Positions 119 through 41,315 of a DNA stretch of 64,000 bases are shown one piece after another (position 1 is the first letter of the stretch; each line of letters starts with the position of its first letter). The position numbers and the translations under genes were made by a program. The notes beneath the pieces are model-generated. The model ran no database searches. It saw only the letters and a list, made by a program, of their open reading frames with translations, and was not told where the DNA came from. Source of the DNA: Beroe forskalii. Taxonomy: Eukaryota; Ctenophora; Nuda; Beroida; Beroidae. The stretch is from the NCBI GenBank assembly GCA_011033025.1, contig WFMF01000578.1, forward strand, positions 35,053 to 99,052. The letters are read 5' to 3'.

Positions 119-692
119 TGTCCTCTCAGTTCACACTCACTCACCAGATAGTTCCCAGGAATTTGTCCTCTCAGTTCTCACTCACCAGATAGTGTTTCCC
201 AGGATGGTGTCCTCTCAGTTCTCACTCACCAGATAGTGTTTCCCAGGATGGTGTCCTCTCAGTTCTCACTCACCAGATAGTGTTTCCCAGGATGGTGTCC
301 TCTCAGTTCTCACTCACCAGATAGTGTTTCCCAGGATGGTGTCCTCTCAGTTCTCACTCACCAGATAGTGTTTCCCAGGATGGTGTCCTCTCAGTTCTCA
401 CTCACCAGATAGTGTTTCCCAGGATGGTGTCCTCTCAGTTCTCACTCACCAGATAGTGTTTTCCCAGGATGGTGTCCTCTCAGTTCTCACTCACCAGATA
501 GTGTTTCCCAGGATGGTGTCCTCTCAGTTCTCACTCACCAGATAGTGTTTCCCAGGATGGTGTCCTCTCAGTTCTCACTCACCAGATAGTGTTTCCAGGA
601 TGGTGTCCTCTCAGTTCTCACTCACCAGATAGTGTTTCCCAGGATGGTGTCCTCTCAGTTCTCACTCACCAGATAGTGTTTCCCAGGATGGT
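119..692. repeat. 44-bp minisatellite covering a 5' splice site
   Basis: About 13 tandem units with a 44-bp period, for example at 207 and 251, most nearly identical. Read on the minus strand each unit contains the last 21 bases of the 670-763 exon followed by the donor CTATCTG|GTGAGTGAG and about 14 more intron bases. The right end of the array is therefore the functional junction and the rest are copies of it running into the intron. The leftmost units (119-170) are diverged. Period and position are seen directly; that copies can act as donors is inference. Confidence 0.93.
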
Positions 693-763
693 GTAGGCGT
701 AGCACCACTCTGTCGCTGTTCCTTCTTCCGATATTCCCACAAACATGGGAGATGCCACTATTC
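670..763 (-). CDS. Internal coding exon of an unidentified minus-strand gene
   Basis: On the minus strand an acceptor (tgtatttcag) at 764-773 is followed by a 94-bp open exon ending at a strong donor (CTG|GTGAGTGAG) at 669. The open frame reads IVASPMFVGISEEGTATEWC and continues YAYTILGNTI. Its codon choice looks like coding sequence. I do not recognise the family. The next downstream exon would lie left of the window and I could not find the upstream one. The exon abuts the 44-bp minisatellite, which is built from its own 3' end. Exon call is fairly secure because both splice sites and the frame agree; the product is unknown. Confidence 0.6.
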
Positions 764-775
764 CTGAAATACACT

Positions 776-1119
776 GCTAATGCGCGTTTATCATTTGACC
801 AATCAGCATGACGTGCTGAGGTTATCCTGCTAGCTGATTGCCCTTACGAATAAACTAATATTTCGTTGTAGCTGTCGCTAAAAGTCAATTTCTTTCCCAT
901 ATTTATTGGAAATATTTAAAATTGAAATAAATGCTACATAACTCCTTGGAAAGGTGTTTACGAAAGTAATCCGGTTCTAATGGAACTCTCACAAGTTTAG
1001 TGTTCATTTAGCCAGCAATTCTAGTGGCTGCTCGAATGAACATTATTTTTTATTTCGAAGGTTTTACTTCTATTCCAACAGCAGTAACAGCCAATGACAG
1101 GAATCGAAGGATTCAAGTA
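776..1119. other. No gene seen
   Basis: AT-rich intergenic or intronic sequence between the 670-763 exon and a SINE. I see no convincing exon or repeat in it. Confidence 0.5.
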
Positions 1120-1360
1120 ATCAAGCCGGTGACGGTTAAGGAAGTGTAATCCATACTGTCGTTCGAGACTTCGCTGCAATGGGCAGTCTTTGATTTAACC
1201 TCCCGCACAGTTTCCTGTACGCTCGGCTGAGTGAACCGTGTGGCTGCTTAGGTGCGAGTTCTCACCCTTAGCACGGTAGGCAAGGCCGGGAATCGAACCA
1301 CCAACCTCGCGATTGAAAGTCAGACGCCCTAACCACTGCGCTACCTGGCGGCACTTCATG
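1120..1360 (-). mobile_element. tRNA-derived SINE (copy 1)
   Basis: Reading the minus strand from 1360, a tRNA-like head carries an A box (TAGCGCAGTGG, 1333-1343) and a perfect B box (GGTTCGATTCC, 1289-1299). A non-tRNA body follows that contains GCTAAGGGTGAGA and AGTATGGATTACACTTCC. The same two body motifs occur in the element at 40463-40620, which has a different tRNA head. The paired RNA polymerase III promoter boxes and the shared tail mark a SINE family rather than a tRNA gene. The exact ends and target-site duplication were not resolved. Confidence 0.75.
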
Positions 1361-1669
1361 ACCATCCCAATTTACCTAATCCTCTAAGAAGACCCACGAA
1401 GGCACCAAGGATGTCTCGTAGCGCTACATTCATGATAAACACATTCTGAAACGATGAGATCCGGTATTCATTTTCAGTTTTCAAGAAAGTGGGAAGTCGT
1501 GCCCGAAATCACTCGATTTGCTTCGTTATAATACACCCACAGCATAAAAGACCCTAATCATTGCTATAATGTGTTCCAATTATCGCACTCAATTAGCCTC
1601 TAAAACACATTATTAAACACAATATCCGCTTCTCAATAACGAACGTTCCTTTCGACTAACCTGGCACAG

Positions 1670-1861
1670 AGGCAGCTTAACGTGGAAAATGAGACAGTAG
1701 AATGTGACGCTGCTCAGGAAGAGACCAATGATGCTGATTACTGTGAGGAACGAGCCCTGAAACGCATTTCACAGGTCAAAAAACCCTACAAACGGCTTGC
1801 AGTGAGCAATCTCATTAACACCGGCCGAACTATTTGTGGGACCTTGTCGGAATCTAAGTAG
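1670..1861 (+). CDS. Probable 3'-terminal exon of an unidentified gene
   Basis: An acceptor-like stretch (ctaacctggcacag) with a possible branch-point motif precedes a 64-codon open frame ending in TAG at 1859-1861. It reads RQLNVENETVECDAAQEE and, further on, KRISQVKKPYKRLAVSN and GRTICGTLSESK. It is acidic at first, then basic. Codon use looks like coding sequence rather than random AT-rich DNA. I do not recognise the family, and no upstream exon was found. It could be a chance open frame, so confidence is low. Confidence 0.35.
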   Translation, partial: RQLNVENETVECDAAQEETNDADYCEERALKRISQVKKPYKRLAVSNLINTGRTICGTLSESK

Positions 1862-4100
1862 AACTTACAGTAACTTAGTAAGGGATGTATCTGCCAATCC
1901 AATAATTTGAAAAACAAGATTCACCGTCAGGCCGGTTCGGCCTGCACTCACATTAACAATCTGGAAGATGCAGGTGTCAGCAGTGCCGTTCTGTTGGCAT
2001 CCACTCTCCCCAATGTTATACATCCTTTGCTCAAATTTGATTGTAAGAAGTTTTCAGGATACGTCATGTTTTTCTTCTATAATTCAACACTATTGCATTC
2101 CTTGTCAAATTTTCGAACTCTCTGATATTATGGTCGAGACTAGAGTTGGTCACTGACAGATACCTCAGACTTTAACTATCAAGTCTTGTATCATCCAGCG
2201 TTCTAACTATCTAGCCTTTTGGACTTTGGGAGACAGTCAGATCTTCCAATCATGAATTTCCATAGCGATCTCATTGGCCCTGGTGTTCTGCGATCTTGTT
2301 TAATTGTTTTTAAATGTTATATTTAAACTTCCAGACGCAGCATTATCAGGGAAATGGGGTTATGTAATGCTTCCTACAAGAATGTATTAGATAAACTGAT
2401 AGACAACGGTAGACAACGATATTTATGAAAGATAAGATAAGCACTGCTTGAGCACGTGGCAGCTTGACGTCACGGCTTAATTTCATTGATTGCTCATGAG
2501 CCATGAGGAGCCACTTTGAGAGGTGTCTTAACATCCACATCAGCGGTTAATAATGCCACATTAGTCCCTGGTTTTGATTATATGAATGCGCGAGTGAATC
2601 ATGAGCACCTACGAGGAACATGCTAAATGCTCGTGTTGGGTGAGTTATCTGGTCATACCCATGCCATGGTCCCCTCAAAATAAATTAAACTTAAACTGCA
2701 GGTCTAGGTTAACGGGTTAACGGGTTGACTGACAGCCAACAATAAATACTATGAATTAGAGCAATTTTCACAGATAACATTTTACGTATTATATATTACC
2801 AATTAACCTAGTGGAACTCTAGACTCTTATTAAGTTTCGCGTATTTGAAAATTTGAAATTGGCGCTTTGCTCGGTCAATCCATTGCCTGTCAAGTGATCT
2901 TCCTTGGGAACAACGTCAAATAAACCAATCAGACGGCTAATAAATCTGATATTCCGAACGTCAGATTGACAGATTCAACCGTGATGTAGGTCAATTTGGC
3001 ATCGTGTAATCTAGTGGAACTCTTACGAAACATAGTGCTGTTTAGATTCCAAGAAACCGCTATTAGTTTCCCCATTGAGTTCTAGAGGCTCGAAAAATAG
3101 TGATTGGATTGGTTTAGATGTTAAGCCTTTATCTATTATTGACTGAAACGACAACATCAAAGCAAATTATAATCAAATATCGATCATTCAAAACAGAGAA
3201 ACCCCATTTTTTCATCATGGGGTACTGAATTCTATCAGTGCACTTAGGACCGCAGAGTATCATTAATTTATTAATCATGTGACTAAATCCACCTTATTTG
3301 CACTGTCATTATAATATGTGCCATGTGATTATGTGAATTCTGTGGTAATGAAAAGTCGACACATAAACCCCTTCTTATCTTAGATATTGGCTCAATGCCC
3401 CTTATCATAAAGTTATAATGCCCCAGCGACTGCGATATAATTATTCCCTTGTTGGCGTGACATAGGTAACTTGATGAACCTGTTTTGTTTATGTTTTGTA
3501 TACGCTAAATCAAGGCAAGACTCGGACTAGAGATCGAACAACCCGTGCCCGGAGACACGGGAGTCGGGACCAAGAAAGTTCCGGACTCAGATGAGAGCTA
3601 TTCCCGACCCAGCACCCCGTGCCCGCCGACAGTGCCCCGACCCCTGCATTGGAGTATAGCTACGGGTGGTACCTGAAATGGCACATGGATTAAACATCAA
3701 TGGTTCTCATTTCGGTCGTTTGTTCAGAGTTACTGACGGACAGAGACTTTGGTTCCGTACCTCCACTGAAAGGCTAACACTTGAATTATACAAACAGGCA
3801 TCGCTGTACCCTCAGTACCCTCTTATGATCCTCACTTCCTTACTTCCTTACATCGTTAGGCCGAACTATAACATACTATTTCTTTTAATTTCACAAATGC
3901 TGCGAATTCTAGAGAGGAACGTCTACCCCAATAATGGGCAGTTTAGTTATGAGCATCTCCTTGACCCCTTGTGTAGTGTTACATCCCCTCTCGCTCCCTT
4001 TGACAAGCACGACAAATCACGTGTACAACCACTCAGTTCTTCGGTTGACTGAAATAGAACGGACTAGCCGTCTATCATGCAATAAAGCTCACCTATTCTG
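1862..4100. other. No gene seen
   Basis: About 2.2 kb of mostly AT-rich sequence. A GC-richer patch at 3530-3660 keeps a short frame open (PGDTGVGTKKVPDSDESYS) and a 128-codon open frame runs 3666-4052. Neither shows a recognisable motif or clean splice sites. The patch could belong to the N-terminal stalk of the sulfotransferase that follows, but I cannot support that. Confidence 0.45.
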
Positions 4101-4991
4101 ATGCGCCGTTACCTCACTTCTCAATGTGAGACGTTGCTGCTTGCCGAAGGGGCACTGCAGGGTCGGGTGGAAGAGCCACGCAAGATCATACATTCGCAGT
4201 AAGTAGGACCCTACAGAATAGGGGCCCAGAGAAGCAAGGTCATATCGCCAAACTTCAGTTTCGCTGTCGTTCGCAACCCATGGACCAGGCTCGTCTCTGC
4301 GTATGAGGATAAGCTGGGCCCTGGCGGCCCCAAAATACCTCCTTCAGCCGAGGAATTCGTCAGGAAACTTACGAGACAAAATGCAAGCACTAGCGAGGAC
4401 GGCATAACGTTCGAGGAATATCTCCAGTTTCTCATCTCATCCAGAGGCTCCTGGAATTTGCACTTCCGACCACAGACTCACACCCTAAATTTGACTTTTA
4501 CCTGTTACTGAAGGCAACCCAGCTCAACCCTTTTCAAACTCTGACTTTCTTGACTGACTCATGGTACGTGGACAGGGAGAGTAAATCTACTTTTCAGTGC
4601 TTTGGACAGAAATTTAGTTGACTCAAACTGTAGTGTGCAGTAGTAAAGGCGGCTTGTCTGGCCTAACACCCGGACCCCCATTGCTCAGTGAAGTTCATCA
4701 AGCCACTGTCACTGAAATGTTGTTCCCACTAAATCCAGAGCACATCGAGGGTACCAGTGACATCCCTGCCGTCGCTATTAGTGGTGTCCCGTGGCCCCTG
4801 TGCTGGCAGTGCTCAACAGAGTACTGTCCCCCATACTCCCGAGTATGGGGAACTTACAATACAATACAATACAAAAGATGGCCCCAAATATTATCGACGA
4901 TATTTACAAACTCTTCAAGCCCGATTTCATGCTCATGAACTATACCAATTTCACAGTCTATCCAAACTTCCCGATGCCTAGTGCTTTATAA
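4101..4991 (+). CDS. Carbohydrate sulfotransferase (CHST/HNK1-ST family), partial or decayed
   Basis: Golgi enzymes of this family move sulfate from PAPS onto glycans. Three pieces are visible. (1) 4101-4198 encodes ETLLLAEGALQGRVEEPRK and ends at a donor (CA|GTAAGT). (2) After a 60-bp intron, 4259-4508 begins FAVVRNPWTRLVSAYEDK, the 3'-phosphate-binding motif (RxPxxRxxSxY), then GITFEEYLQFLISS and LHFRPQ, which match the middle of the domain. (3) 4878-4991 encodes NIIDDIYKLFKPDFMLMNY, the typical C-terminus. Piece 2 runs into a stop at 4509 without an obvious donor, and the cysteines usually found just after FRPQ are absent. No N-terminal transmembrane exon was found. It may be a pseudogene, or exons between 4510 and 4877 may have escaped me. 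Family call is secure; intactness is not. Confidence 0.62.
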
Positions 4992-6546
4992 AACCTAGCC
5001 TTATATTGTATCATTCAATGAAATTTAATTTCGCTCTCCCCTGATAGCCAATATGTTTTCACAAACGACATTATTTAATTATTATTAAAGAAGGTGGTAA
5101 AGAAGAGTTATCAAGGGAGATATTATGCACCTATCGTTACCATACATCATATCTCAAGTCTTCTGGTCAAGGGTTGTGTCAATAACCCAATTATTATTAA
5201 CTTTTCTCTCTATGGAAGGAAATTAGGAGTTTTTCTGGTGGTCTTTAATTTTTATTCGACAAGATTGAAATATCGTAAATCAAAATATGTACTATACCTA
5301 CATGTACTTTGGAATCGGGAAATGCCAAAATTGTCACTTTGAAAGCGAGATATAACAAGTCAGTTGAAAACGATCAATAAAAGCATAAACTTAAAAGGAA
5401 GTAAATAGCACACTTTTCTGTTATTAAATACTCCGAGAAATTAATCAGTTCCGCAAAAAACATGGATAAAGAAAAATTAATTGAAGTATCAAGTTACGAA
5501 GTTCCTATTGTTCATTTTCCGTGAACAATGAATTTTTGTGGAATGTGGATATGTGTGTTCCTATAGGCAATTAGGATGAATATTATATCATTATATGGGA
5601 CATGTATCCCTTTTTTCATGGAATTGGGGACCTGCACAGTGCACCTTTAAACTTACTACGTAACGCACGAGTTTATGGTTTTTTCACTTAACTAACTATA
5701 CGGACATGGTTGATCCGTTGATCATATTACACCAACTCTGTTCTGAAGTATGCAGATAAAAATACTACATTCGATGCGATAAAAGGAAGCATAGCATTTA
5801 ATAACCTCCAATTGAGCCACTGCATTTTTCTGGATACGATAATACAGAAGATTCAAAATTTAAAATTCTTCTATCTTGAGCTCGGTCGCTCTGGAAACTC
5901 GTGTGGTTGCTATGGAGTCAAAGCAACCTAAAAATCTAAGAATCCATTTGCGGCTGGTGATAATTACAGAAATTCTTACAGAACTGAAAAATTTATCGAA
6001 TTTCATGAATTATCGAGAAAGTAAATGGGGTCATGAAACCACCAATCTGTAACATTCATTCCTTACTACTAGAACAAAAGATAAAGAACTGGATTTTAAT
6101 GATGACAGAGGAAACTTATAAGACTACCTTGCTCCTCAATTAACACAAACTAACAAAACATATCAAATACTAACCAAGCGACTGGCACCTGTTTCATGAC
6201 AGATAATTATCTATAATTAGATAGTAATTACTGAGCTTCTAGCAACAATGGTCGTAACTCACAGTGACAACTTGTCCGTCGTTCGTAACTTAACCAAACA
6301 TAATGGTATTGTTAGAAGTGATAATTATTTCTACATGGGTGTGTTATAATTATTTCTATGCTCCTTGGACACCGCAATGTTGCACAAAGACACCAGTTAC
6401 TTTGTTATTAGATCGTGTCAACTCATCATGTCTGTCATCCATAATTATTGAGTGATTAGGGATCCTTTTGAAGTTGTTAAATCAGTGTTAACTTATTAAT
6501 CTAAATTCTCAAGTCACAGATCAAAATATGAATCAAAAACTGAGTA
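4992..6546. other. No gene seen
   Basis: AT-rich intergenic sequence. Only short open frames without motifs or supporting splice sites are present. Confidence 0.55.
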
Positions 6547-7329
6547 CCTTAGTGGTAGAAATTATGATGCGTACTAATTATGATTATTTTCGCAAAATGA
6601 TCATAATTAGTACGCATCATAATTTCTACACACCATAATTTCTACAGATCATAATTTGTACTTTCTCAAAATTCGACCATTATTTAGACTTTGAGAAAAC
6701 ATGTTGAAACAACCAGTATGACCATGTTGCCCAAAAATTATGGTTGGCTCCAAGGCCCTTTTCACATCTTTGGAATACAACTTCAATCAGCAAATTTTCA
6801 AAAGCAAAGACTAGGGTGCTATCATATCATGGAGTTGCCATAAATTACGGAGTTTCACTCAACTTAGTTGATACCAATAATCAAGGCCCTAACCTCCAAA
6901 TAAGCTACCTTACTACCAGACCTTATCAAAAACCAAATTTACATTTGATCCAAAATGAAAACACAGACAACATAAATCGAAAAATAATCTGTGAATGTGC
7001 AGGCATGCCGCATGATATTCACATAACATTAACTTCCCAATCACCATGATGTTGAAAGTTAGAGCACAATTATGGATGTTAAATCATGCCAAAAGAAATG
7101 ATTTTGTCAGAAAATAGCTTATTTTATGATTTTTGACCAAATTTCGGAGGACTCTGGACAATTTTGGTTCAAAGGGCCGGGTAAAATGGTTAAAAAATAA
7201 TGAAACTTCATTCCACTGGTTGTTCGCCGAAAAGGTTTGTTTTTATCCCAAAATTTTTTCATCATAATTAGTACCGATCATAATTTCATTCGTCATAATA
7301 AGTACACATCATAATTTCTACCACTAAGG
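6547..7329. mobile_element. Small non-autonomous DNA transposon (MITE-like) with TA target site
   Basis: The ends are inverted: CCTTAGTGGTAGAAATTATG at 6547 matches the reverse complement of the right end at 7310-7329, and similarity continues about 40 bp inward. TA flanks both sides (6545-6546 and 7330-7331), as for Tc1/mariner-type insertions. The element is 783 bp. A 101-codon open frame at 6744-7049 has no transposase motifs. The left end also holds a separate perfect hairpin (6555-6629). Superfamily assignment from the TA duplication alone is tentative. Confidence 0.75.
6555..6629. repeat. Perfect 30-bp hairpin at transposon left end
   Basis: Arms 6555-6584 and 6600-6629 are exact reverse complements (starting GTAGAAATTATGATGCGTAC), separated by a 15-base loop TATTTTCGCAAAATG. 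The left arm overlaps the terminal inverted repeat, so the end of the element is a subterminal duplication in inverted orientation. Confidence 0.92.
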
Positions 7330-7712
7330 TATGTGAGCAATTACTAGTAAATCTCATTATGTATCAGCTATGATGAGAAATCAAACAAAGCCAACAATCC
7401 TCGGACCAGATAGTTGTACGAGGATACATAATATCACTATTTCAGTGCATATTTTCAGGACATTATGTTAATTATGTAATTATGCGAAAGATAAATCAGT
7501 CATCGTTGCGTTCCAACAATAATCCAAAAATAATTATAATTTATTACAGTATTACCAAGATCGACCTGATATAATACATTTATCTTGTGAAATTGATTTA
7601 AATTATCATCTTACAACCCTACGGGGTTTAACAACTAGTTCCAAAGTTTTGCTACTTTTGTTTCGTATTATCCTGATACTATCTTATCTTACTATATATA
7701 ATGCGTGTTGTT

Positions 7713-8054
<342 letters not shown>

Positions 8055-8144
8055 TGGCTGGCGATTCGTTTTCAAGTAGGCAACGAAACTCTTTTTTCAT
8101 CGTGTTGCAAAAACTTTATAATGAATCAGATAAATTATGAAAGA

Positions 8145-8470
8145 TTTTTTCGGCCACCCTGAGGGGCGTGGGGGGCCACGCCCTTTTTTTCGCAAAAATT
8201 AAACTTTCGAATTTTTTCAAAATTCCTTCGCCATTGAGTTGTTTATGATGAATGAAAATTTTGAGAATTTTGTCCGAATTATTGGGTCACCCTGAGGGGT
8301 GTGGGGGGCCACGCCCTTTTTTTCGCAAAAATTAAACATTCGAATTTTTTCAAAATTCCTTCGTCATTGAGATGCTTATGATGAGTAAAGGTTTTGAGAA
8401 TTTTGTCGGCAATATTGGGTTACCGTTGGGGGCATGGGAAGCTTTTTTCGCAGAAATTAAAGTTTCGATT
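8145..8470. repeat. Tandemly duplicated ~134-bp segment
   Basis: A segment beginning CACCCTGAGGGG and containing a GC-rich inverted motif (GGCGTGGGGGGCCACGCC) followed by TTTTTTTCGCAAAAATTAAA is present at about 8154-8285 and 8288-8420, with a weaker third copy to 8470. No coding potential is seen. Confidence 0.85.
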
Positions 8471-10004
8471 TTCCGCTCCTGCACAATCATCATTCAAAAG
8501 TAATTTTAACTGCAAACTCGCACGGTCAAATCACTGTCAAAGGGACATGTGGCCGTTAGCTCATGCGACTGCCCTCATTCGCCGTCCGTAGGACGGGAAC
8601 CGACTAGTATTACTAACAACTATATTATGTCAATGTTATTATGTTCCATTGTGTAGATTGATCAGATTGTAGTACTTCTGTTATCGTGTGTTATCATGAC
8701 GGTGTAAACTGTAGCTTCTCTCTCCATTGCAAACGTGGGTTCATGAACGCTGAAAATTTCTACTATTTGCTTTGTTTTAGCTTTTCAGACTTTAAGAATT
8801 GCCGTGCAGTGCGCAATCACCTCTTATCGTGCTGTGAACGAGGACTGTGCAGTGTGCAATTTTCTGACCCCACGATTCAAATTTCAGTTCATAAAATTTG
8901 AGCGCATGTCCAGATCCTCGAAAACATAAGTTTGAAACATTCACCCAATCTTTGTCTCTCATATTTCAGTACTTGATAATTTCACATCTATGATGAATTT
9001 ATCAATAAATTGCTATTGCCGAATGCTGAGTCTAGATTCATAGCACTCTTACTTCTCATTGGTCGATATCACAGAAATTTTAATCAAAGCATACGACATT
9101 TTAATCTTGGAAGTTCTTCTTTATAACGTAGAATTGAATTTGTAAAATATCTTGATCCATTTTATTTGACCATTTAATGACTCTCGTATTTATCTCTAAC
9201 CACTGACATTCTAAATATCCCTCTTATCGTATTTAATAAAAATCTAAAGACTTCCAATCCTGAATGATAGTTGGGCTGCAGTACGTAATTTCCAAGAAAT
9301 TTCTCCTTGAATTTAAATATTTTTCTACCAAATTTAGGAGCAGATATCTAGACGTCACCCACGAATTGCTAGCAGCGGGTAACTGAAACTTTATACAGAA
9401 GGGAGTGCATATAAGCCCATTGAACTGCAAACAAACACTAGCAAAACAAAAATATGCCCGCAAAATGCACTGAGTACTATAATTTGTTATTTGATTCACT
9501 TTTAGTTCGGAACATGAATAATTTAGATAAAATTGGCCTTAGAAAATTGGCCATAAAAGTGACTGTTATTTTGCTATTTTGGGATACAAGATGTACTACC
9601 GCAGTTGGCATATTTACAAAATATATCGAGATATTGAACAATTGAGGTTCACAAATTAAAAAAGATAAATTATCCACAACAGAAAAGTACAGGTGCACGG
9701 TAACATAGTAAGATAGTAATTAGAACGGTTATGGATTTCAGCAGTACTGAATAAACTTTTAAAATGATACAGCGAAGGTAAGAAGGTATCCAGAGGTATC
9801 ATGCACCGAGTGTCCCTAATAAGTTAATTAGGCAACAGATGATCAGCAACATTCATGGGAAGTAAGCGAACAGATGGGAATGATTATGATTATAATTAGA
9901 AGGTAGGTGTCATCTTACATACAGCCCTGCTTAATGATCGACATGGGGAATGATTCTTTGCGGCTCATTGCCTGGCTGAAACTTTGTGCAGGTCATCATG
10001 TAGG
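8471..10004. other. No gene seen
   Basis: AT-rich sequence with short open frames only. No exons matching the missing 5' part of WDR82 were recognised here. Confidence 0.5.
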
Positions 10005-10295
10005 CACTTGTACATTAACCCTCCCATTTACCCACTATTTACCCTCCAATCTTTTTCAACAACCCTCTTATAATTACCCATTATTTACCCTCCAATATCC
10101 GTACATTAACCCTCCCATATTTACCCATTATTTACCCTCCAATCTCCGTCCATTAACCCACTTTTTGCCCTCCAATTTCCGTACATTAACCCTCCCATTC
10201 ACCCACTAGTTACCCTCCGATTACCGTACATTATTAACCCTCCCATTTACCCACTATTTACCCACTATTTACCCTACATTATTAACCCTCCGTCA
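10005..10295. repeat. Pyrimidine-rich minisatellite abutting the WDR82 acceptor
   Basis: Irregular tandem units built from CATTAACCCTCCCATTTACC and ACTATTTACCCTCCAATCTC, about 30-45 bp long and strongly C/T-biased on the plus strand. The array runs directly into the polypyrimidine tract and acceptor (cacctctccag) of the WDR82 penultimate exon at 10305. It resembles telomeric TAACCC only superficially. Confidence 0.85.
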
Positions 10296-10304
10296 CCTCT
10301 CCAG

Positions 10305-10718
10305 GCTCCCAGGACGGTCACCTCCACGTTTGGTCGGTAAAGTCGGGTAACAAGATAGCTGTGTTGGAAGGAAACCACCCCAACCCTATCACATGCGTGG
10401 CTTTCAACCCTAAATACATGATGATAGCCTCAGCTTGCAACAACGCCGTGAGTACATGCGTTAAATCTGGAACTGTGTCAAGATTAATTGATTCTTTCGA
10501 AGTTGTGGGATCAACTGAAGTCTGGTTGTTTATTGAAATAAAGAATCAGTGTCCCCCCTTTTCTTTAAAATGTGTGTTTTTCAGTGAAAATGACATGTAG
10601 AAATATCCCCAAGATGACGGCATTTTATTTTGTTTTGAACTTTATTCTGTTACTCCGCTTCCTAATCCGCTGTGTTTTTCAGGCATTCTGGATCCCTAAC
10701 CTAGAGGAGCTACAGTAA
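10305..10718 (+). CDS. WDR82: WDR82 (Swd2) C-terminal two exons
   Basis: WDR82 is a WD40 beta-propeller subunit of SET1 histone H3K4 methyltransferase complexes and of PNUTS/PP1 termination complexes. Exon 10305-10447 (acceptor ctctccag, donor GCC|GTGAGT) encodes [20 protein letters not shown] then [20 protein letters not shown]. Exon 10683-10718 (acceptor tttttcag) encodes [11 protein letters not shown] and a TAA stop. This matches the end of WDR82, where the last WD repeat (DGxxHVW, ITCxxFNPKxM, SAC) is followed by a short AFWxP tail. Frames and phases join cleanly. The upstream propeller exons are not recognised in the preceding 10 kb. This is either the end of a gene with a very long intron or a duplicated 3' fragment. 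Confidence 0.82.
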
Positions 10719-13260: not shown

Positions 13261-13267
13261 TTTTCGT

Positions 13268-13510: not shown

Positions 13511-13673
13511 AGTGGCATATATTACTCATTTGCAATTTACATTTCGTTGCGTTTTTATCTCTCTGCAAGTGCAATAACTGATAAGCGCATCACACACTGT
13601 TTGCTACCTGCTCATGATATACATGGAATACAGCTACCGTGTATAATATTGTACAAGTACATCTCCTGTAACC

Positions 13674-14783: not shown

Positions 14784-14895
14784 ACTTTCGCTGCCAAGCT
14801 TTTTCGGTGTTTGAAGACAGAGTGAATATTTTGTGAATTTGATTGATGTATTACACGTCCATACAGAAGTGTTAGTGCTTCTTCGGACAAATTAT

Positions 14896-15022: not shown

Positions 15023-15024
15023 GT

Positions 15025-15420: not shown

Positions 15421-15424
15421 TAAA

Positions 15425-30790: not shown

Positions 30791-32685
30791 TAGCAAGAGA
30801 AGAGCACGCTTTTCTTCAGTGAAGAAGCGCACTCGTTTCTTCAGTGAAAAAGCGCACGCGTTTCTTCAGTGAACTTGAAGAACCGCACCCGTTTCATCAG
30901 TGAAGAACCGCACGCGTTTCTTCAGTGAGGAACCACACGTGCATCTTCAGTGTAGACCCGCAAGCTTTTCATCGGCAAAAAAGTGCACACTTTTCCTCAA
31001 AGGGAGATTGCGCTATTCTTCAGTGAAAAGTGCATGCTTTTTTCCAGTTCCATGAAGAAGCGCACGCTTTTTTCCATGGAGAAGCGCACGCTTTTCTTCC
31101 ATGAAGAAGCGCACGCTTTTCTTCCATGAAAAAGCGCACGCTTTTCTTCCATGAAGAAGCGCACGCTTTTCTTCCATGAAGAAGCGCACGCTTTTCTTCC
31201 ATGAAGAAGCGCACGCTTTTCTTCCATGAAGAAGCGCACGCTTTTCTTCCATGAAGAAGCGCACGCTTTTCTTCCATGAAGAAGCGCACGCTTTTCTTCA
31301 ATAAAGAAGCGCACGCTTTTCTTCCATGAAGAAGCGCACGCTTTTCTTCCATGAAGAAGCGCACGCTTTTCTTCCATGAAGAAGCGCACGCTTTTCTTCC
31401 ATGAAGAAGCGCACGCTTTTCTTCCACGAAGAAGCGCACGCTTTTCTTCCATGAAGAAGCGCACGCTTTTCTTCCATGAAGAAGCGCACGCTTTTCTTCC
31501 ATGAAGAAGCGCACGCTTTTCTTCCATGAAGAAGCGCACGCTTTTCTTCCATGAAGAAGCGCACGCTTTTCTTCCATGAAGAAGCGCACGCTTTTCTTCA
31601 ATGAAGAAGCGCACGCGATTCTTCCATGAAGAAGCGCACGCGATTCTTCAATGAAGAAGCGCACGCGATTCTTCAATGAAGAAGCGCACGCGATTCTTCA
31701 ATGAAGAAGCGCACGCGATTCTTCAATGAAGAAGCGCATGCGATTCTTCAATGAAGAAGCGCACGCGATTCTTCAATGAAGAAGCGCACGCGATTCTTCA
31801 CGAAGAAGCGCACGCGATTCTTCAATGAAGAAGCGCACGCGAATGAAGAAGCGCACGCGATTCTTCAATGAAGAAGCGCACGCGATTCTTCAATGAAGAA
31901 GCGCACGCGATTCTTCAATGAAGAAGTGCACGCAATTCTTCAATGAAGAAGCGCACGCGATTCTTCAATGAAGAAGTGCACGCGATTCTTCAATGAAGAA
32001 GCGCACGCGATTCTTCAATGAAGAAGCGCACGCAATTCTTCAATTAAGAAGCGCACGCGATTCTTCAATTAAGAAGCGCACGCGATTATTCAATGAAGAA
32101 GCGCACGCGATTCTTCAATTAAGAAGCGCACGCGATTCTTCAATTAAAAGCGCACGCTTTTCTTCAATGAAGAAGTGCACACTTTTTCAGTGTAGAAGGG
32201 AACACTGTTCTTCAAGGAATCAGCTTATATTTTTTATAATGAAGAAGCGTACACTCATTACACTCTCCAATGAAGAAGAGTACGCTCTCAATGAAGAAGC
32301 GTATGCTCTTCAATGAAGAAGCGTGCGCTTTTTTTATTGAATAACGAACGCTCCTCAATGAAGAACTGTACGCTCTTCAACGAAGAATCATACGCTCTTC
32401 AATGATGAAGCATATGCTTCTTCATTGAAGGAAAACGTACTCTCCTTCATTAAGAGAAGCGTTCGCTTCTTCATTAAAAAAGCGTGCGCTTCTTCAGTGG
32501 AGAAAAGTTTGCGCTTGTTTATTGAAGAAAAGCGCGTGCTTCTTCATAGAAGAAAAGCCTGCGCTTTTGATCGATGAAAAGCGTGCGCTTCTTAATTGAA
32601 AATCATACGCCTTCTTCATTGAAAGAGTACGCTTCTACATTAAAAAGCGTACGCTTCTTCATTGAAGAGTTATATGGGACACATA
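30791..32685. repeat. 25-bp satellite, inverted arm
   Basis: The same 25-bp family in the opposite orientation (GAAGAAGCGCACGC then TTTTCTTCCAT). It is homogeneous at about 31070-31610, changes to a GCGATTCTTCAATGAAGAAG subtype at 31610-32150, and then degenerates with mixed orientation to about 32685. With the forward arm it forms an inverted structure of about 7 kb around the spacer. Confidence 0.94.
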
Positions 32686-32689
32686 TCAA

Positions 32690-33095
32690 TTAGTAAGAGA
32701 AAACGATATTCTATAACGGTGAATGTTATGTCATTCTATTACAATAATTTCAAGCTTTCATTTCAAAGTATCTTACCAGAAGCTTCACAATTTAAATCAT
32801 GATGAAACGATAAAGATATTTGAGGAGAGAAAGCGTCGCCGAATAAATTCGAATTCCGAGGATGGATTTTAATTCTCTGAAGAACGATTCATTGTTTAAA
32901 AGTACAGCAGAAATTAAAAGATTATCAATTAATACTGAGCCAAATGAAGGGAAATAAGCCTGAAAATATGCCAATAGTATAGGGCTGTCAGCTGATGAAA
33001 AAGTAAAATATTAAACAAGTCTTGTTTTGATACGGGCATATATATTAAACTATCAAATTAAAACAATAAAAAGACAGTTTCCAGCCACACCCCTG
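32690..33095. other. MAGOH 3' flank; no gene seen
   Basis: AT-rich stretch between the satellite and the MAGOH stop codon, presumably including the MAGOH 3' UTR. Confidence 0.45.
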
Positions 33096-36000
33096 TTAGA
33101 TGGGTTTGATCTTGAAGTGCAGGCCGATGAGAGAGAAGACGAAGCACTTCAGGTCCTGGACGAGGTAGTAGAAGGCCCGGAGGCCGTCTGGGTCCTTGCT
33201 GCTGTTCACATCCACCAGACTACCTATCTTGGAGGTGTTGAAGCAGATGTGCTGGTTCTTGTGCACGATCTCTAACTCCTGGCGACCTGCCAAGGGGGTA
33301 ATGTGTCAGTACACAACAGGAGGGGTTCCTGGCGACCTGCCAAGGGGGGTAATGTGTCAGTAAACAATAGGAGGGGTTCCTGGTGACCTGCCAAAGGGGG
33401 TTATGTGTCAGTACACAAGAGGAGGGGTTCCTAGCGACCTACCAAGGGGGGTTATGACTTATGTGTCAGTACACAATAAGAGGGGCTCCTGGTGACCTGC
33501 CAAGGGGGGTAATCTGTCAGTACACAACAAGAGGGATTCCTGGCGACCTGCCAAAGGGGGGTAATGTGTCAGTACACAACAAGAGGGATTCCTGGCAACC
33601 TGCCAAAGGGGGGTAATGTATCAGTATTGGTCAGTACACAACAGGAGGGCTTCCTGGCGACCTGCCAAGGGGGGTAATGTGTCAGTACACAACAGGAGGG
33701 GTTCCTGGCGACCTGCCAAAGGGGGGTAATGTGTCAGTACACAAGAGGAGGGGTTCCTGGCGACCTGCAAAGGGGGTAATGTGTCAGTACACAACAGGAG
33801 GGGTTCCTGGCGACCTGCCAAGGGGGTAATGTGTCAGTACACAAAAGGAGGGGTTCCTGGCGACCTGCCAAGGGGGTAATGTGTCAGTACACAATAAGAG
33901 GGGTTCCTGGTGACCTGCCAAGGGGGTAATGTGTCAGTACACAACAGGAGGGGTTCCTGGCGACCTGCCAAGGGGGGGGTAATGTGTCAGTACGGGTCAG
34001 TACACAACAGTAAAACCATGTGTGCGCATGGACAGATCGATGAAACGACAGAAATTCAATTGAAATTAAATTGTGCGCACCATGTGCGTCTTTCAGTTTA
34101 TCAATCCCTTCATCGATCGATACATGTGCAATTTGTGCATACATATGCGAATCAATCACGGCAAAAACTTTTAATAACTTTCATTCTTTTTAGATTCATT
34201 TAAAAACTTTGGGTGTTAAATTTTGCAAGTTTTCTTTAAGTTTCAAAAAGGGGGTAGAAATTGAGCACAAAACGGTAAAGGATTGATTTTCAATTTTTCT
34301 CCATACATAAGATAAAGAGAAGACCCTTCCAAAAATTTCATTATTTTGAGCCAACCCCTCAACCTTTCCCGTCACCACGAATATGATACCCTCTCAATAC
34401 GTGTACAGCAATTATCTCATCTTAAATAGTGAACACGTTTGAGGGAAATAAGAAATTTCTGTGTAAATCATAATAATAAGTGATGGAAATATTCATAAAT
34501 CGTGAACATTAACAGACGAAAACGGTTATTCGCTGCATAGCCAGACACCGGTACATACATTAGGTAAGATTCGGAAGTAAAGTGTAAGTAAAGGGGTGAC
34601 TGCTTCCATCTACCAAGAAATTATAATAAAAGGAAAGACTTCCAGTGAGAATTTAAAATTTGAAATACCGATGGTGTTTTTCATATACTTTACCTTAAAT
34701 ATTTCCTCAGTCATCAATCTCGCTTAATGAGTATGAAATATTAATAAGCAATTATGATTAATCGGTTGAATCTTAAGGATGTTAAAATCAAATATTTTAA
34801 AAATCTCTAAAAATAAAAATTCTGCTAATAAGGCTGGCTCATTATTATCATACAGTGAAAATGTCTTATATTGTTTGACCGGAATTGAAACTGTGAAACA
34901 TCTGTAGTTCAAGCCCCAATTAATAAAAACACTGTCATTATCGTGTGTATGTAAAGTTCAAACAGATCTGTGAATGGCGAAATTACTATGCTTTAGAACG
35001 TAAAACTCCTGACAGTGATCACCGTCACTGAGTGTTCTCATCACAACTGCGATGTCTGAGTGTTCTCATCACAACTGCGATGTCTGAGTGTTCTCATCAC
35101 AACTGCGACGTCTGATGGCTCTGGGTCGGAGCCTCCTGAGAGTTACTGTGCGGAAGGGGCGCGTAGTACGCCGGGTAGGGGTATGCGTACGCCGCGGAGG
35201 CAGGATACGCCGCGGCGGCGGCGGATCCGGGGTGCGGCAAAGTTCCGTGCGGCGGCAACACAGGGACCGCTCCGGGATGCGGTACAGCACCGGGATGGGG
35301 CACAGCACCGGGATGGGGCACAGCCCCGGGATGCGGCAGGGTGGCGTAGGGGTGGTACATCATGGGGTATGCAGGGGGCGTCTCCGCTGAATGAGCAGGT
35401 ACAGGGGGAGGGTACATGGGGTGGTAGTAAGGAGGGTACATGGCTCCTGGGTACCCTGGGGCGGCAGCCACATGGCCGGCTTCTATCCCTGACTGCCGCC
35501 TACTCCTGCTGCTGGAAGAGTCAGTGACGACGATGTCATCGAATCTAGGCGGCGGGCTGGGGGATCGTACTCTCCGAGTCCTCTCGGAGTTCACAGACCT
35601 GCGTCTGCTCCTGTCTGGGGACCGGACAGCGCGTCTGGGAGGCGGGGATGGGGAGGAGTCCTCACACAGTGCGTCCGGGTTGGTAGTGAAGAGCAGGGCG
35701 CGTCTAGCCTCCGGGGACAACAGACCGTCAGAGTCCCGGTGGTCGGGCTCTTCTCTTGGCACGGGTTTTGGTGAGGTCACGGGTTTCGGTGAAATCACTG
35801 GTTTTGGAGGTGCAATAGGTCGTCTGCTGACGGACGGAGGGGTCATGTCGTCCTCACTGTCAGGAGCAGGCGTTATCTCGTCTTCTTCTACTCGGTAAGC
35901 TTTAGACCGGGACTTGGGACTTATCCCCGCAGCGAAGTAAGGGTCGACCCTCTCCTTCTTAATAGCAGCCTCCAGCTCTCTCCGAAGCTTCTCTTCTTTC

Positions 36001-39000
36001 TCCAGCTTACTTAACTTCTTAGGTTTCTCAGGCTTACTAGGCTTTTCAGGCTTACTAGGCTTATCAGGCTTGCTGGGTTCACCTGGTATATCCGATCTAT
36101 CTGTGGTGATGGTCTTTAGGAAGGGGGCAGGGGGCGACTGTCCCTTCTTTGGCAGTTTCGGTAACCCGTGAGTCTCCAGGATTTCCTTCAGTTGTTCTGG
36201 TGGCAGCTCGGGACCCTCACCGAGCGGCTCAGGCCTGAACCTCCGGGACTGAAAGCCGGGCGGCGTGTTGAGGGCGTCGTCAAGAGTCTCATTGAAGCCG
36301 TAGCCATTCCACTCCTTCATCTCGTAGGTTCCATCATCCTCATTGTACTTCTGTCCGAACCTCCCTGACTTGAGCTGATCGCAGATGTGGTAGGAGTCCA
36401 GGACCCTCACTACCAACATCAGCACGATCACTGCTGCTATCACTGCTATGATGATGATGTACTTAGTGTCAAGAGGGGCTGCTGCCACAGGGGCTACCAG
36501 GCTAGCCACCAAGATCCACAGCGCTGAAATAAGCAGGGGGTTGAGTAGACGGATATAAACTTGTTAAAACACTGTGTTATGGAAAGCATCATAACGTAAA
36601 CGAGATGGCTGAAAGCCCGGGAATTAGCATGCTATTCGAGAAGGTTCTATCGAAATCTCGTCTTTCGCAGCCACGTCATTCAACTTTATTTTAAAACTAA
36701 GCGAGATTCAAATCGGCAATTTATGTCTAAAACTTCAATGGCATCAGCGAAAAGTTAAACAGGCTCTGGGAAGAACTAACCTTTGTACATTGCGGTATAA
36801 CAATCCAAAGTCCACTAAGAAACACAAGCGGCCGCAGGCACGAAGCTCTAACACACACACGGGATGTGTGCACAGACAATGTATCAAATTACCAACGGTG
36901 CAGCCTTCTCTAACGATGTGTGTATAATTATTACAGAGAGATGAATAACAAACGAATTGAATATATCCCTCGTCCCAGTAGTATTCCGATGATGTGATGT
37001 GTAGGAATGTACTCCGAGTACAATAGAGGAGCCTACTACTACAACAACACACGGTCAGAAAGAGAGAGGTGAATTAGGAAGCACTTTAAGTGAGCGAGGG
37101 GGTATTAATTTAAAAGAGGCGGCCTGTGTTCAGTCAGATCATGAGAAACATCAAGAGAAACATGAGATGTTATCTCTCTTGGTGTAGTAATAACAGTACA
37201 CTCCGGAGTGTGGAACACGGTGTACACACGAACTAGAGGCGGTAGAGAGTGACGTCATTATCAGGTAGCTGAGTGGTGAACTGATGAGGGAGTGCCGCCT
37301 ACCCCTCAACAGAGGGCAGGTTATCGGGTGTGTGTTATTAGATTAGGATCATGACGTGTGGAATTAGGGAGTTGTATTACGTAATTAGGCTGTGTGTAAT
37401 CACCAGATCATAGTGACACGGTGACTGATCCCATGAGGCGCATCGTTAGACATAGAGCTCGTTTACATCAGATGTCAAAACGAGGCTATCACTAGACATT
37501 ATCAGTCAATCAGTCGGATATCAATTATCAGCGCCAGGCATGTCTAGTCAGACATCATCATTAGACAATAGACATGATCAGTCAGACATGACATTATCAG
37601 TGACCTGTCAGGCATGACAGGCGACCAGTCAGACATGACAAGTCAGACATGACCAGTCAGACACAGGATTGTTTAATACGTGCAAAAATCGTGAAAAAGT
37701 ACGGCGTATTGCTCCTGGAGAAAATTACGCACATTTTTCTCAAAATACGCGCATTTTTCTCAAAATACGCAACAAGAAATTTCAACACCACGTCTGAATA
37801 GGAGTTGCAAATCATAGAAACATTCTATATACATAGATACGCAAAAGAACTCATCGCAGTTAAAAGATAAATCATCAATGATGTAAGTGCACTGAATCGC
37901 ATAAACACCGAATACAGAGTTACATGTTGAGAAGTTCTTATAAAGCTCGTCATGTATACATTCTGACTATTCAGTATTCAAAGAAAACAGTGAATTTGTT
38001 CATAGAAGCATTGTGTACGTGAAAATTATACACAGTATTCTGTATACACTATACAAACTACAAAAGTATACACTATTGACTCAGTTACTCTGTACACAAT
38101 ATCTAAAATAAACAGTGAGACCGTGTACTAACACAACTGGTACAACCAAGTGTACAATACACCTGTTCGATGTATTTAACAAGGGTCCAAGAGCTCTTTT
38201 ATTGTGAGCCAAGTTATTTGCCTTTGTCTCCTTTGGAGCTGTTATCACTGCTGTTTTAATGCGCTTCAACGTAATCGACTCAGAACTTCAAACAACCACA
38301 TTAACGTCACAAGAGCCGACTATTCTAAACAGATCTACAATTATCGCACAAAGCACTAACTGCTCCACATATTAGCTCTCTAGAAAACATAAGAGCCCCA
38401 GGGGGTGGGTACACTAAACTCCAGTAACAGGGACATATCGAACTCCTACTTGCGCGGGTTTTTCGTGCGCGGCTCACTGCCTGTTATTAACAACCAGTGA
38501 GCCGCGCACGACAAATCTGCGCACTGAGGAATTCGACTTGTCACGGTACGTGCCAAAGAGGGAAGGTACACAGGCCATGTGAGGGGAGTGAAAGGGAAGT
38601 GTTGTTGCCATCCCCTGGGCCGAGGCCGGGGATGCGTCTGACACATCATGTGTCTACTGCCACGCTTAACCTGCCAATGTCAGCCATGAATATTTCACCC
38701 ATTATTTACGACTAAGAGAGTCAAGTACAAAAACACTTGTGAGACAAAATTATTTACATATCAAGTGTAACAACAAAGCATTAAAAGAACTGTGATACTC
38801 ATAAGTTTGCCTATATAGTTTATTTTATGGCAGGCTCCAATGAAAGGACATTATCCTAGTTTAAACAAACTTATCAACAAGAATACATTCCCGGAAGGTG
38901 ATTCGTCATCAGGCATTGTACGCTTCAAGAGGGCACTTTACACTTTACAGTAAGTCAACAAAGAGCGTGATGTGGAACGTTAGTGATTACAGCTATACCA

Positions 39001-41315
39001 ATATCACATTGATAAGTGATGTGATGCGGATCAACAATAATAGCTAAATTTTAACAAGGTATGCACTGTTGATAAAAGTAAACAACTCTGAAATGGGAAA
39101 TTGGTGACCAATAGCCAGCTTGTGGACATTTATATCAGTGGCGTATTAGCTTAGCCGTAGGATCTCGTCGTGAAGTTGACCAATAAGCATGCCAGTTTGC
39201 TGTCAACTCGCGCGCTGATTGGTTTATGTCAAATAGACCTGTTGGTAAGGTAATACGTCATCGATATTAATTGGACAATAGCCAGCTACTCATTCGAACG
39301 GAACAATATTCACAGCTTGCTAATGACAGCTCAAATTGAAAGTTATATCAACGGGGAAAACTATTTTCAAGTGCAGGAATGAGAACATGAATAGCAGAAA
39401 AGGTATTACCGCATTTCCGCATTAGCAATTTTAAGTGCAAAGGTGTCAACGACACTCGTTAACACATGCACATTTTGAAAATGTACTGGAAGCAGCAAAT
39501 AATTCAAAGGTCCAGGTGCTCCCAGAGCAGGAGATAAATTCTGCGTTGTCATGGAGACACCACTAATCGACTGTTCTATACAGTCCACACTAAGTCTATA
39601 ATCGTCCTAAAGCGTAACGAACTTAAACAAAACTGTATATCGCATATATATTCAAAAACTAATGATAAGCATGATGTTAATAAGTGTACACTTAAACGTG
39701 CATGTGATTGGTAGTCAGAGGAAAGGAGTTGAGGGGTCTCATCAAGTGATAAAGCGAGTGTTTGAGTGTAACTTGTGCCGCAACATACAAAGTAGTATTC
39801 TAGAAATGCTGTTTATGTAATAGGGTAAGAATAGTCATGATCATTGAGATCGATTTTTCCACAGCAATTCGCCCCCCTCCCTCATCTAAGTTCCCAACCC
39901 CTGACTATCTGTCCCTTCCAGGGAACAACTCTCGCACCTCCCAATCTCGCATCCAATGAAATTTTTACGTCGATAGGCAATGATTCTGGAATTGAAACAA
40001 ATTGATCAATAAGAACAAGAAAAGTTCAAATTTTAGTCTTTTCATATCATCGCAGTACAGCCATTCAGAATGCATGATCATGAAACTACCGAAGCTGACT
40101 TTTCTTGGCCGGTGCCAAAGCTTTGGTAGCTCCAAGGAACATATTGGTTAAAAAACTGACTTATTGTGTCAGGGGCAGGAACAAATTGGTTAGAAAAAAG
40201 TGACCTATTCTGTCAGGGGCGGGAACAAATTGGTTAGAAAAACTGACCTATTCTGTCCGGGTCAGGAACAAATTGGTTAGAAAAACTGGCCTATTCTGTC
40301 CGGGGCAGGAACAAATTGGTTGGAAAAACTGACCTATTCTGTCCGGGGCGGGCCACATCTTGTCATCTTCGTACATGATCTCTGCCTCCTCAATAATCCG
40401 AGATAGCTCCTGGAGTACAGGAGGTTAAGTTAATGAGGGAATTAACAATCCGAGACAACTCATGCCAGTGACGGGGAAGTGTAATCCATACTTTATTCGC
40501 CCGAACCTGCAGAGGCTCGAGATAAATCTCTCACCCTTAGCTCAGTGGCGCTGGCCGGGATTCGAACTCAGGATCTTTTGATCCTGTGCTCAAACTGATA
40601 CCACTACACCACTGACATTATAAAATGTGAAAACAGAGAAGGCATGAGCATACCTTCTCAAATGTTCCACATACCTGGAGTACAGGTAGGTTGACGTTGC
40701 ATTCCTTCCTGATCATGGTGTCGTTCTTGTAGTTGCTGTTGTTAGCGTACCTCAGTTTACCTGGACGGTTATTCGAGGGGTCAGTCACGAGAATACACAA
40801 TCAGTACTGGACTAGTAAGCTGTTAGTCAGTTGTTGGTAACAAGTAACTAACAACTTGTTTTTTCAGTTCTGATTGTGTGAGCTACTAACAACTTGTTAG
40901 TTAATTTTCATCGAGTTGTTAGTTTGCAGTTAGTTAATAGTAACGACTCACTGATATGTGTGCTCATAGGTTCAAAGCAACAGGTCGAAAAGTAGGTTGA
41001 AAAGGTAGGTAGAAAGGGCTCAATCAATCAAGACCCTTCTTGGCTTGGAAATTGCAGATCATGCTTTCAATCTTCAACAGAGATGAGGAAAAGATAGTTC
41101 CTGTTATGAAAACCATCCAGACTGGGGCACAGTAAAATTCTACATGTCCTTTCGACCTTCTTTTCGACCTACTTTTCAACCTGTTGTTTTCGACCTATGA
41201 AGTCACATATGCGTAATAACTCACCATCGGGTCTGAACTCGAACTCCAGGAACTCGTGACCGAACTTTCCCTTGTGTCCAACGTAGTACCGGAGGTAGAA
41301 GTCCGAACTGCTCAT
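33096..41315 (-). CDS. MAGOH: MAGOH (mago nashi), exon junction complex core
   Basis: MAGOH pairs with RBM8A/Y14 and locks eIF4A3 on spliced mRNA about 24 nt upstream of exon junctions. Four exons (minus): 41315-41225, 40760-40675, 40409-40334, 33286-33096. All phases join to give 147 residues, matching the family (human 146). Exon 1 reads [20 protein letters not shown]; exon 2 [20 protein letters not shown]; exon 3 [20 protein letters not shown]; exon 4 [20 protein letters not shown] and ends [19 protein letters not shown]. Intron 3 is about 7 kb and contains another gene on the same strand (35097-36790). The exon 3 donor (ATAG|GTCAGT) and the exon 4 acceptor (GGCAG|GTCGCC) are each multiplied in adjacent tandem arrays. 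The protein appears fully functional. Confidence 0.95.
33278..34015. repeat. ~50-bp minisatellite made of the MAGOH exon 4 acceptor
   Basis: About 14 units (spacing about 48-60 bp; first copies at 33281 and 33331) of CCTGGCGACCTGCCAAGGGG plus TAATGTGTCAGTACACAACA and GGAGGGGTT. Reverse-complemented, each contains CCCTTGGCAG|GTCGCCAGG, the acceptor and first bases of exon 4. The functional junction is the leftmost unit and the array extends into intron 3. Confidence 0.95.
34016..35032. other. MAGOH intron 3 / downstream of nested gene; nothing seen
   Basis: AT-rich sequence without recognisable exons or repeats. Confidence 0.5.
35033..35112. repeat. 28-bp triplication across the nested gene's stop codon
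   Basis: TGAGTGTTCTCATCACAACT plus GCGATGTC is repeated about three times with a 28-bp period (TCACAACTGCGA at 35041, 35069, 35097). The unit at 35097 carries the stop codon (TGA on the minus strand) and the last codons TSQL. Confidence 0.9.
35097..36790 (-). CDS. Single-pass membrane protein with proline-rich tail, nested in MAGOH intron 3
   Basis: Two exons (minus): 36790-36781 (ATGTACAAAG, donor GTTAGT) and 36523-35097 (acceptor ttatttcag), joining in phase to 478 residues. The N-terminus [19 protein letters not shown] looks like a signal peptide. Only a few residues (APLDTK) separate it from a strong membrane segment [17 protein letters not shown]. The tail contains [16 protein letters not shown], a Lys-rich run of KPSKPEKP repeats (about 150-185), SR/RS-type segments ([14 protein letters not shown]), and a Tyr/Pro/Ala-rich end with four PHPGAV repeats. 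I do not recognise a family; it resembles adaptor-type proteins such as Shisa only in layout. The nearly absent ectodomain is unusual. Gene structure is well supported; function is unknown. Confidence 0.78.
36791..40149. other. MAGOH intron 3, upstream of nested gene; short repeats only
   Basis: Holds the promoter region of the nested gene. I see a CAGTCAGACATGA-type short tandem repeat at about 37550-37665 and a perfect 16-bp hairpin (CGTGCGCGGCTCACTG, 38464-38479 with 38495-38510, 15-base loop). No further exons were recognised. Confidence 0.55.
40140..40345. repeat. 43-bp tandem copies of the MAGOH exon 3 donor
   Basis: CTGACCTATTCTGTCCGGGG recurs five times with a 43-bp period (TGACC at 40201, 40244, 40287, 40330). 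Reverse-complemented, each unit carries CCCCGGACAGAATAG|GTCAGT, the end of exon 3 with its donor. The copy next to the exon (40330) is the functional one; the leftmost is diverged. Confidence 0.93.
40463..40620 (-). mobile_element. tRNA-derived SINE (copy 2)
   Basis: On the minus strand from 40620, a tRNA-like head has an A-box-like TGGTGTAGTGG and a B box GAGTTCGAATCC. The body then contains GCTAAGGGTGAGA and AGTATGGATTACACTTCCCC. The body motifs match those of the 1120-1360 SINE while the heads differ. It lies in MAGOH intron 2. Confidence 0.75.

Follow-up and report, generated by a model that had tools for sequence, protein, structure and literature searches.

Minisatellites spanning exon–intron junctions in MAGOH, ECT2L and other genes of the ctenophore Beroe forskalii

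Introduction

Five tandem arrays with a repeat unit that runs across an exon–intron junction were found in a 64 000-nucleotide stretch of the genome of the ctenophore Beroe forskalii (the window; positions 35053–99052 of contig WFMF01000578.1, C667 in our numbering). The arrays at ECT2L, at MAGOH and at an exon of a further gene (670–763) are real junction-spanning minisatellites, two of them proven by protein alignment. Junction-spanning arrays are spread over about ten genes, with unequal certainty. We consider it probable that minisatellites are born pervasively, are tolerated at exon edges and draw the exon ends into array turnover.

Anatomy of the arrays in the window

Coordinates are window positions unless prefixed by a contig or locus; the assembly searched comprises 216 Mb in 1134 contigs. 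Arrays in the window were called with Tandem Repeats Finder (TRF) and each was then cyclically aligned to its own unit, phased on the junction. All five arrays reported in the preliminary description were recovered by TRF, and all five exons lie on the minus strand. Three arrays span donors and two span acceptors; both types also occur outside the window. The same description had placed the functional junction in the terminal unit, with the copies extending into the intron. On cyclic alignment and re-reading of the junctions the exon end lies within the outermost copy, with the remaining copies intronward, in 5/5 arrays. The splice string (AG or TG)/GT (the slash marking the boundary) had been assigned to four of the five units and was read again in four: the junction strings are CTG/GT, CAG/GT, TAG/GT and CAG/GT, that is (A or T)G/GT, and the fifth is CAG/GC. 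The unit lengths are 44, 37, 35, 50 and 43 bp, none of them divisible by three.

MAGOH and its 7-kb intron

The two junctions in MAGOH, which we take to encode a component of the exon junction complex, are certain, because a gapless protein alignment runs across both: residues 3–147 of the product of the four exons match a solved chain of Mago nashi homolog 2 (E = 4.3e-78). The acceptor of the last coding exon (33106–33286, minus strand, protein end KIKPI) is spanned by an array at 33277–33993 (minus strand, 50-bp unit, 13.7 copies by TRF, junction between 33286 and 33287). The donor of the exon at 40334–40409 (minus strand) is spanned by an array at 40135–40349 (minus strand, 43-bp unit, 5.0 copies by TRF, junction between 40334 and 40333). 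Both arrays thus lie in one 7-kb intron, one at each end, and their units are unrelated to each other. The exons each have a single place in the assembly. The splice dinucleotide is intact in 13/13 scored spare copies of the acceptor array (AG) and in 3/4 of the donor array (GT).

This intron also contains, on the MAGOH strand, a reading frame of 488 aa (35097–36523, minus strand) that by eye has a hydrophobic stretch close to its beginning. An array of 3.1 copies of a 28-bp unit (35028–35115, minus strand, called by TRF and met in the stop-codon test below) runs across its stop codon at 35097–35099. A nested reading frame here agrees with the many nested intronic genes described for Hormiphora in the part of that genome report drawn on here (PMC8527503).

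By eye, sequences resembling tRNA-derived short interspersed elements occur at 1200–1350 and at 40460–40625, the latter between two MAGOH exons. Arrays with 25-bp units extend over several kilobases between ECT2L and MAGOH (25930–32668; 157 and 57 copies by TRF), and their consensus units look mutually reverse-complementary.

ECT2L

The name ECT2L is backed by F-box-like (1.5e-12, over the joined exons), RhoGEF (1.2e-30) and PH (2.4e-8) matches. The array at exon 3 (22019–23785, minus strand, 37-bp unit, 48 cycles) spans the donor. It is split by TRF into 22019–23507 (37 bp, 40.0 copies) and 23526–23785 (7.0 copies), which cyclic alignment joins into one array. GT is intact in 46/46 scored spare copies. 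The proposed donor lies between 23754 and 23753, which sets exon 3 at 23754–23932 (minus strand); the exon end was put at 23802 by the gene finder. The copy on the exon side is one base short of the consensus, giving an in-frame TAG at 23768–23770, 5' of that donor. No stop interrupts the consensus copy, which would finish in phase 0, the phase in which the next predicted exon (EIPRPEDPQ) begins. The TAG may be a consensus error or a genuine broken allele. Of the exon ends given in the preliminary description, those of MAGOH held under gapless protein alignment; that of ECT2L exon 3 is, as assembled, flawed by this TAG.

The array makes up 1735 of the 2146 bp (81%) of the intron after exon 3, provided that no unseen exon lies inside it, and the acceptor of this intron is outside the array. 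An intron can therefore turn mostly into array. The earlier suggestion of a route to intron growth or to new introns is supported by this share as far as growth is concerned; the birth of introns is not supported.

The second ECT2L array (24325–24447, minus strand, unit of about 35 bp, 3–4 copies) spans the acceptor of exon 2 (HDKWNERQRKQLL..., 24120–24333, minus strand, from the gene finder), with the junction between 24333 and 24334. The TRF row (24355–24447, 35 bp, 2.6 copies) stops short of this junction, which is held by an extra, diverged copy.

The exon at 670–763 and its paralogue

The fifth array (136–694, minus strand, 12.8 copies by TRF) has the 44-bp unit CACCATCCTGGGAAACACTATCTG/GTGAGTGAGAACTGAGAGGA and spans the donor, between 670 and 669, of an exon predicted by the gene finder (670–763, minus strand, GIVASPMFVGISEEGTATEWCYAYTILGNTIW). 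The exon is assigned to a G-protein-coupled receptor (GPCR)-like gene by eye, from the downstream exons C667:33111-33246 and 32244-32627 (NPLIYFC); no Pfam match was obtained for it or for its peptide joined with downstream exons. A second copy lies about 19 kb away on the opposite strand (C667:16206-16299). All four differences between the two exons are synonymous in the proposed frame while the flanks are merely 81% and 72% identical, and the exon is therefore taken as coding.

GT is intact in 12/12 scored spare copies. At one synonymous ACC/ACT difference the spare copies follow the variant of their own gene, in 11/12 copies in the window (the exception being a degenerate distal copy) and in 10/10 in the paralogue, the latter counted in an alignment to the 44-bp unit although the paralogue has both 44- and 48-bp units. 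The copy at the distal end of the array in the window is similar to the paralogue's longer unit. Read in this way, the array would predate the gene duplication and would then have been homogenized separately in each gene, along with the exon end.

Inverted duplicate pieces, with two copies of the GPCR-like gene, occupy C667:4207-45500 (window 1–10447 and the contig leftward of it). One copy of this gene apparently sits within an intron of a WD40 gene that we take to resemble WDR82. The last exon of the WD40 gene also occurs twice, at C667:4207-4349 and at 10305–10447. Near the latter exon, a minisatellite found by TRF (10010–10291, plus strand) ends just short of the acceptor placed by the gene finder, with no crossing seen.

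Arrays outside the window

The sample (251 758 bp) consisted of the whole of contig C667 (99 kb), 12 fixed-position 10-kb stretches elsewhere and ten of 11 glutamate-receptor loci, the 11th overlapping another. Its first 219 052 bp contain 104 arrays with units of 15–200 bp over 30 693 bp (14%). Nine further junction-spanning arrays, of unequal certainty, were found outside the window by reading. Four are on C667: a donor array at C667:16299 in the paralogue of exon 670–763, an acceptor array at C667:27746 and a donor array at C667:30293 in the WD40 gene (WD40 matches, the Pfam one below the cut-off), and an acceptor array of two copies at C667:32627 in the GPCR-like gene. Acceptor arrays were also found at L035:1509 in a glutamate receptor (Pfam, 5.6e-26) and at L007, between positions 2120 and 2121, where the exon is coding by eye alone (no Pfam match for its 28 residues). 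The remaining three are donor arrays, at L018:4373 (SPRY match below the cut-off), at L023 (no Pfam match) and at L032 (cullin match below the cut-off, 4.5e-4). L023 and L032 came from the donor-string search described below and so are not a fair sample.

Frequency of straddled junctions

Junctions for counting were taken from a small custom gene finder, which missed L007 and the ECT2L exon 3 donor; 14 junction ends of false introns inside open frames were dropped. A junction was scored as lying in an outermost copy if the 24 bp centred on it matched a copy 13–250 bp intronward at at least 19/24 positions and no copy exonward. Before cleaning, copies were present on the intron side only at 17/246 junctions and on the exon side only at 1/246. 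In all data, which include the window, itself chosen for its arrays, 15/232 junctions were positive against 5.84 ± 2.27 at intronic positions (P = 0.0007); a first version of the null gave 6.14 expected (P = 0.0013).

Without the whole of contig C667 there is no significant excess (6/152 against 4.05, P = 0.21). Five of the 15 positive junctions look false or are stop codons: two at L011, one at L017, and the stop codons at L036 and C667:70154. With these doubtful five removed, there are still 6/176 outside the window, which is not an excess (P = 0.34 for at least six, the null not being curated alike). A comparison of TRF arrays at junctions with other positions, proposed in the preliminary description, was made in the sample only, with the first gene finder, and gave six against 2.97 (P = 0.08) or 2.87 (P = 0.055). 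The rate of straddling at junctions roughly equals or exceeds that at intronic points; a two-fold excess is possible, not being confirmed in the unselected part of the sample.

The same structure was found across the stop codons of 3/33 long reading frames, many of the 33 not being true gene ends; two cases, the frame within the MAGOH intron and a glutamate receptor, are clear and the third is doubtful. Since stop codons are straddled too, the feature belongs to exon edges and perhaps not to splicing itself. The exonic share of the unit ranges from 0.17 to 0.92 over 14 arrays (shares set by hand from the alignments) and is uniform by the Kolmogorov–Smirnov test (P = 0.75), as random founding duplications would give.

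Splice strings, motif density and spare copies

Triples of a splice string (three copies with gaps of 15–45 bp) were searched for blind, genome-wide, with the reversed string as control; matches overlap within arrays. The donor string AGGTAAGT gave 354 triples against 49 for its control, and the acceptor string TTTTCAGG gave 495 against 17. As single occurrences, AGGTAAGT is rarer than its control (8045 against 10 531) and TTTTCAGG is more frequent (19 494 against 9235), so that string abundance does not explain the excess of triples. The control matches fall into 15 (donor) and four (acceptor) loci genome-wide. A third donor string, CAGGTGAGT (406 triples against 82), is given little weight, as most of the matches listed are in contig C77. 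Of the two donor loci inspected, L023 and C1:1948117, L023 was recognized as a junction array. The triple search favours the targeting of junctions, modestly, and is the strongest evidence for it.

The density of splice motifs in 69 array units is not raised over single-copy DNA (donor at 7 bits, 6 against 10.4; acceptor at 8 bits, 5 against 8.7). A control with the donor matrix reversed did come out raised (at 7 bits, 28 against 11.9); the test is therefore disturbed by base composition. Compared with shuffles, the strength of the splice motif in the unit reached p < 0.1 in 8/55 donors and 5/55 acceptors, near chance.

Splice dinucleotides are intact in 179/181 scored spare copies of nine arrays, against 169.4 expected from other adjacent pairs in the same arrays. 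At L007 the dinucleotide is intact in 39/39 copies and 30/33 other pairs are worse. In several arrays many other pairs are as intact as the splice pair, and the pair of the MAGOH donor array is among the worst.

Discussion

In the explanation that we consider probable, tandem arrays would arise throughout ctenophore non-coding DNA, and a founding duplication would by chance cross an exon edge and leave the extra copy in non-coding DNA. As the outermost copy, the exon with its splice site would be preserved, so that selection tolerates the array, and unequal exchange or slippage may lengthen it intronward. From then on the exon end would share in the turnover of the array and evolve jointly with the intronic copies. 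We infer tolerance, growth by exchange and the use of the outermost copy in splicing: tolerance at the exon edge would explain the anatomy, and growth by exchange the length and homogeneity. Arrays cover 14% of the sample, and TRF repeats 13% of the Hormiphora genome; the outermost-copy rate is 1/233 at offset −40, 15/232 at 0, 4.7–5.6% at +5 to +40 and 0.6–4.4% at +100 to +900. These figures speak for the explanation, as do the uniform exonic share, the straddled stop codons, the lack of a significant excess outside C667, the unraised motif density of the units and the spare copies that follow the variant of their own gene.

Several observations weigh against this explanation. When the window alone is left out, 10/176 junctions are positive against 4.7 expected (P = 0.016). 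The outermost-copy rate at +5 to +40 exceeds that deeper in the intron. Counted by distinct locus, string against reversed control, donor triples stand at 10:5 among the matches listed (C1–C248), which is 2.6-fold per occurrence (one-sided P = 0.06), and acceptor triples at 12:0 among the matches listed (C1–C200; one-sided P = 0.01), both P values being computed given the abundances of the single strings. The intact dinucleotides hint at constraint, in copies that are related and not independent. Chance placement, held to be unlikely in the preliminary description, is accordingly disfavoured in all data and without the window, and is not disfavoured once C667 is set aside.

A process of this lineage that preferentially duplicates junction DNA, such as breakage or template-directed repair at R-loops or at stalled forks close to splice sites, would account for the 15/232 positive junctions with their peak at offset 0 and for triples of both strings far above the reversed controls, the donor string being itself rarer than its control. 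The excess fades, however, outside the contig where it was first noticed, the match counts overlap and come down to 10:5 by donor locus, the breakpoints of the units have no fixed register, their motif density is not raised and the TRF-based tests stay at P = 0.08 and 0.055. We hold such a process to be unlikely. The preliminary description had left the choice between a duplicating process and tolerance; tolerance fits the anatomy, and the process is disfavoured by the loss of significance without C667, the uniform register and the motif density. Equally doubtful is the wider proposition that ctenophores have a genome-wide process tandemly duplicating exon-edge DNA, splice junctions foremost, by which several percent of junctions would carry arrays, introns would lengthen at their ends and coding exon ends would co-evolve with dozens of intronic copies. 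That selection retains the arrays because spare copies serve as backup or alternative splice sites would fit the intact dinucleotides (179/181; 39/39 at L007). The copies share recent ancestry, however, so that this count is no test; other pairs are equally intact in several arrays, that of the MAGOH donor array is one of the least intact, and, given the unit lengths in the window, splicing at the next copy would change the reading frame. Retention as backup sites is accordingly very unlikely.

Still less credence is given to the arrays being intermediates of intron birth by duplication of an AGGT-bearing segment. (A or T)G/GT stands at 4/5 junctions, boundary minisatellites are reported to form introns in duplicated human genes (PMC2812944) and the idea is discussed for amphioxus globins (PMC3087553), each in the part of the source used here. 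Against it, the arrays at either end of the MAGOH intron are unrelated, the acceptor of the ECT2L exon 3 intron lies outside its array, and no intron with both splice sites in one array was met, a systematic search not having been made. Assembly artefact or wrong exon ends are just as improbable: the one-base difference that creates the stop in the terminal copy of ECT2L exon 3 is of a kind that a repeat consensus error could produce, but MAGOH reads through gaplessly and the same structure occurs at loci on other contigs.

Comparison with known systems

The comparisons here rest on excerpts of the papers cited. The arrays resemble the amphioxus `mirages' reported in Adh3, troponin C, the globins BflGb6 and BflGb9, and PGBD5 (PMC3087553, PMC3902484), and may be a ctenophore instance of them. 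Tandem repeats across the 5' or 3' exon–intron boundary, AG/GT in the copies and units of tens to hundreds of bases are common to both. The arrays described here differ in the ctenophore host, in occurring in several genes of a 252-kb sample and in copies that share the variant of their own gene's exon. Variable minisatellites, some at exon–intron boundaries, also occur in human genes within segmental duplications (PMC2812944). They are alike in units of about 30 bp, in the boundary position of some and in variation between paralogues; unlike the present arrays, which lie in conserved genes, MAGOH for instance, that are apparently single-copy, they were found through near-identical paralogues, and transcripts suggest novel introns. 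Intron gain through tandem duplication of an AGGT segment (the Rogers model; ATP2A1, fission yeast, potato RdRp; PMC4974935, PMC3629103) likewise involves duplicated DNA that carries splice signals. Here, by contrast, the arrays are at one end of an existing intron and no intron was seen between two copies; in neither the MAGOH nor the ECT2L exon 3 intron do both splice sites come from one duplicated segment. Dispersed introners have their unit at many unrelated loci. Exon 670–763 with its part of the unit, the sole case tested, has two places in the genome, itself and the paralogue. TRF repeats make up 13% of the Hormiphora genome (PMC8527503), an overall abundance like that found here; arrays at splice junctions are not mentioned in the excerpts of that report. 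Among the listed hits of searches in the open-licence literature no report of junction-spanning arrays or splice-site duplications in ctenophores was found; junction-spanning arrays are reported there from amphioxus and from duplicated human genes.

Other observations and significance

At G000:C173:129518-129693 a 28-bp tandem unit contains adjoining acceptor-like and donor-like strings (TTTTCAG GGTAAGT). Glutamate-receptor-like genes at L034, L036 and L037 are single open frames of about 960–980 codons. For two glutamate-receptor stretches the best PDB matches are ML032222a (100.9 and 88.2 bits) and then 4zdm (72.7 and 70.4), with the other listed matches at most 65.5 and 56.9; we take these two to be from Mnemiopsis and Pleurobrachia, respectively. 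A 13.3-kb contig contains a highly derived COX1 in which TGA is read through, seven AGA/AGG codons stand at expected Arg positions (e.g. FDRNF) and no CGN codon is present. No tRNA was found by ARAGORN (bacterial setting) on 2.8 kb of this contig. Both the receptor matches and the mitochondrial code indicate a ctenophore.

The occurrence of junction-spanning arrays in several ctenophore genes, MAGOH among them, means that a distant animal lineage can reach this state. The arrays offer a natural test of how the spliceosome selects a single site where as many as about 50 nearly identical ones are present. They are also a plain route for intron growth, and a setting where coding exon ends are homogenized with non-coding copies.

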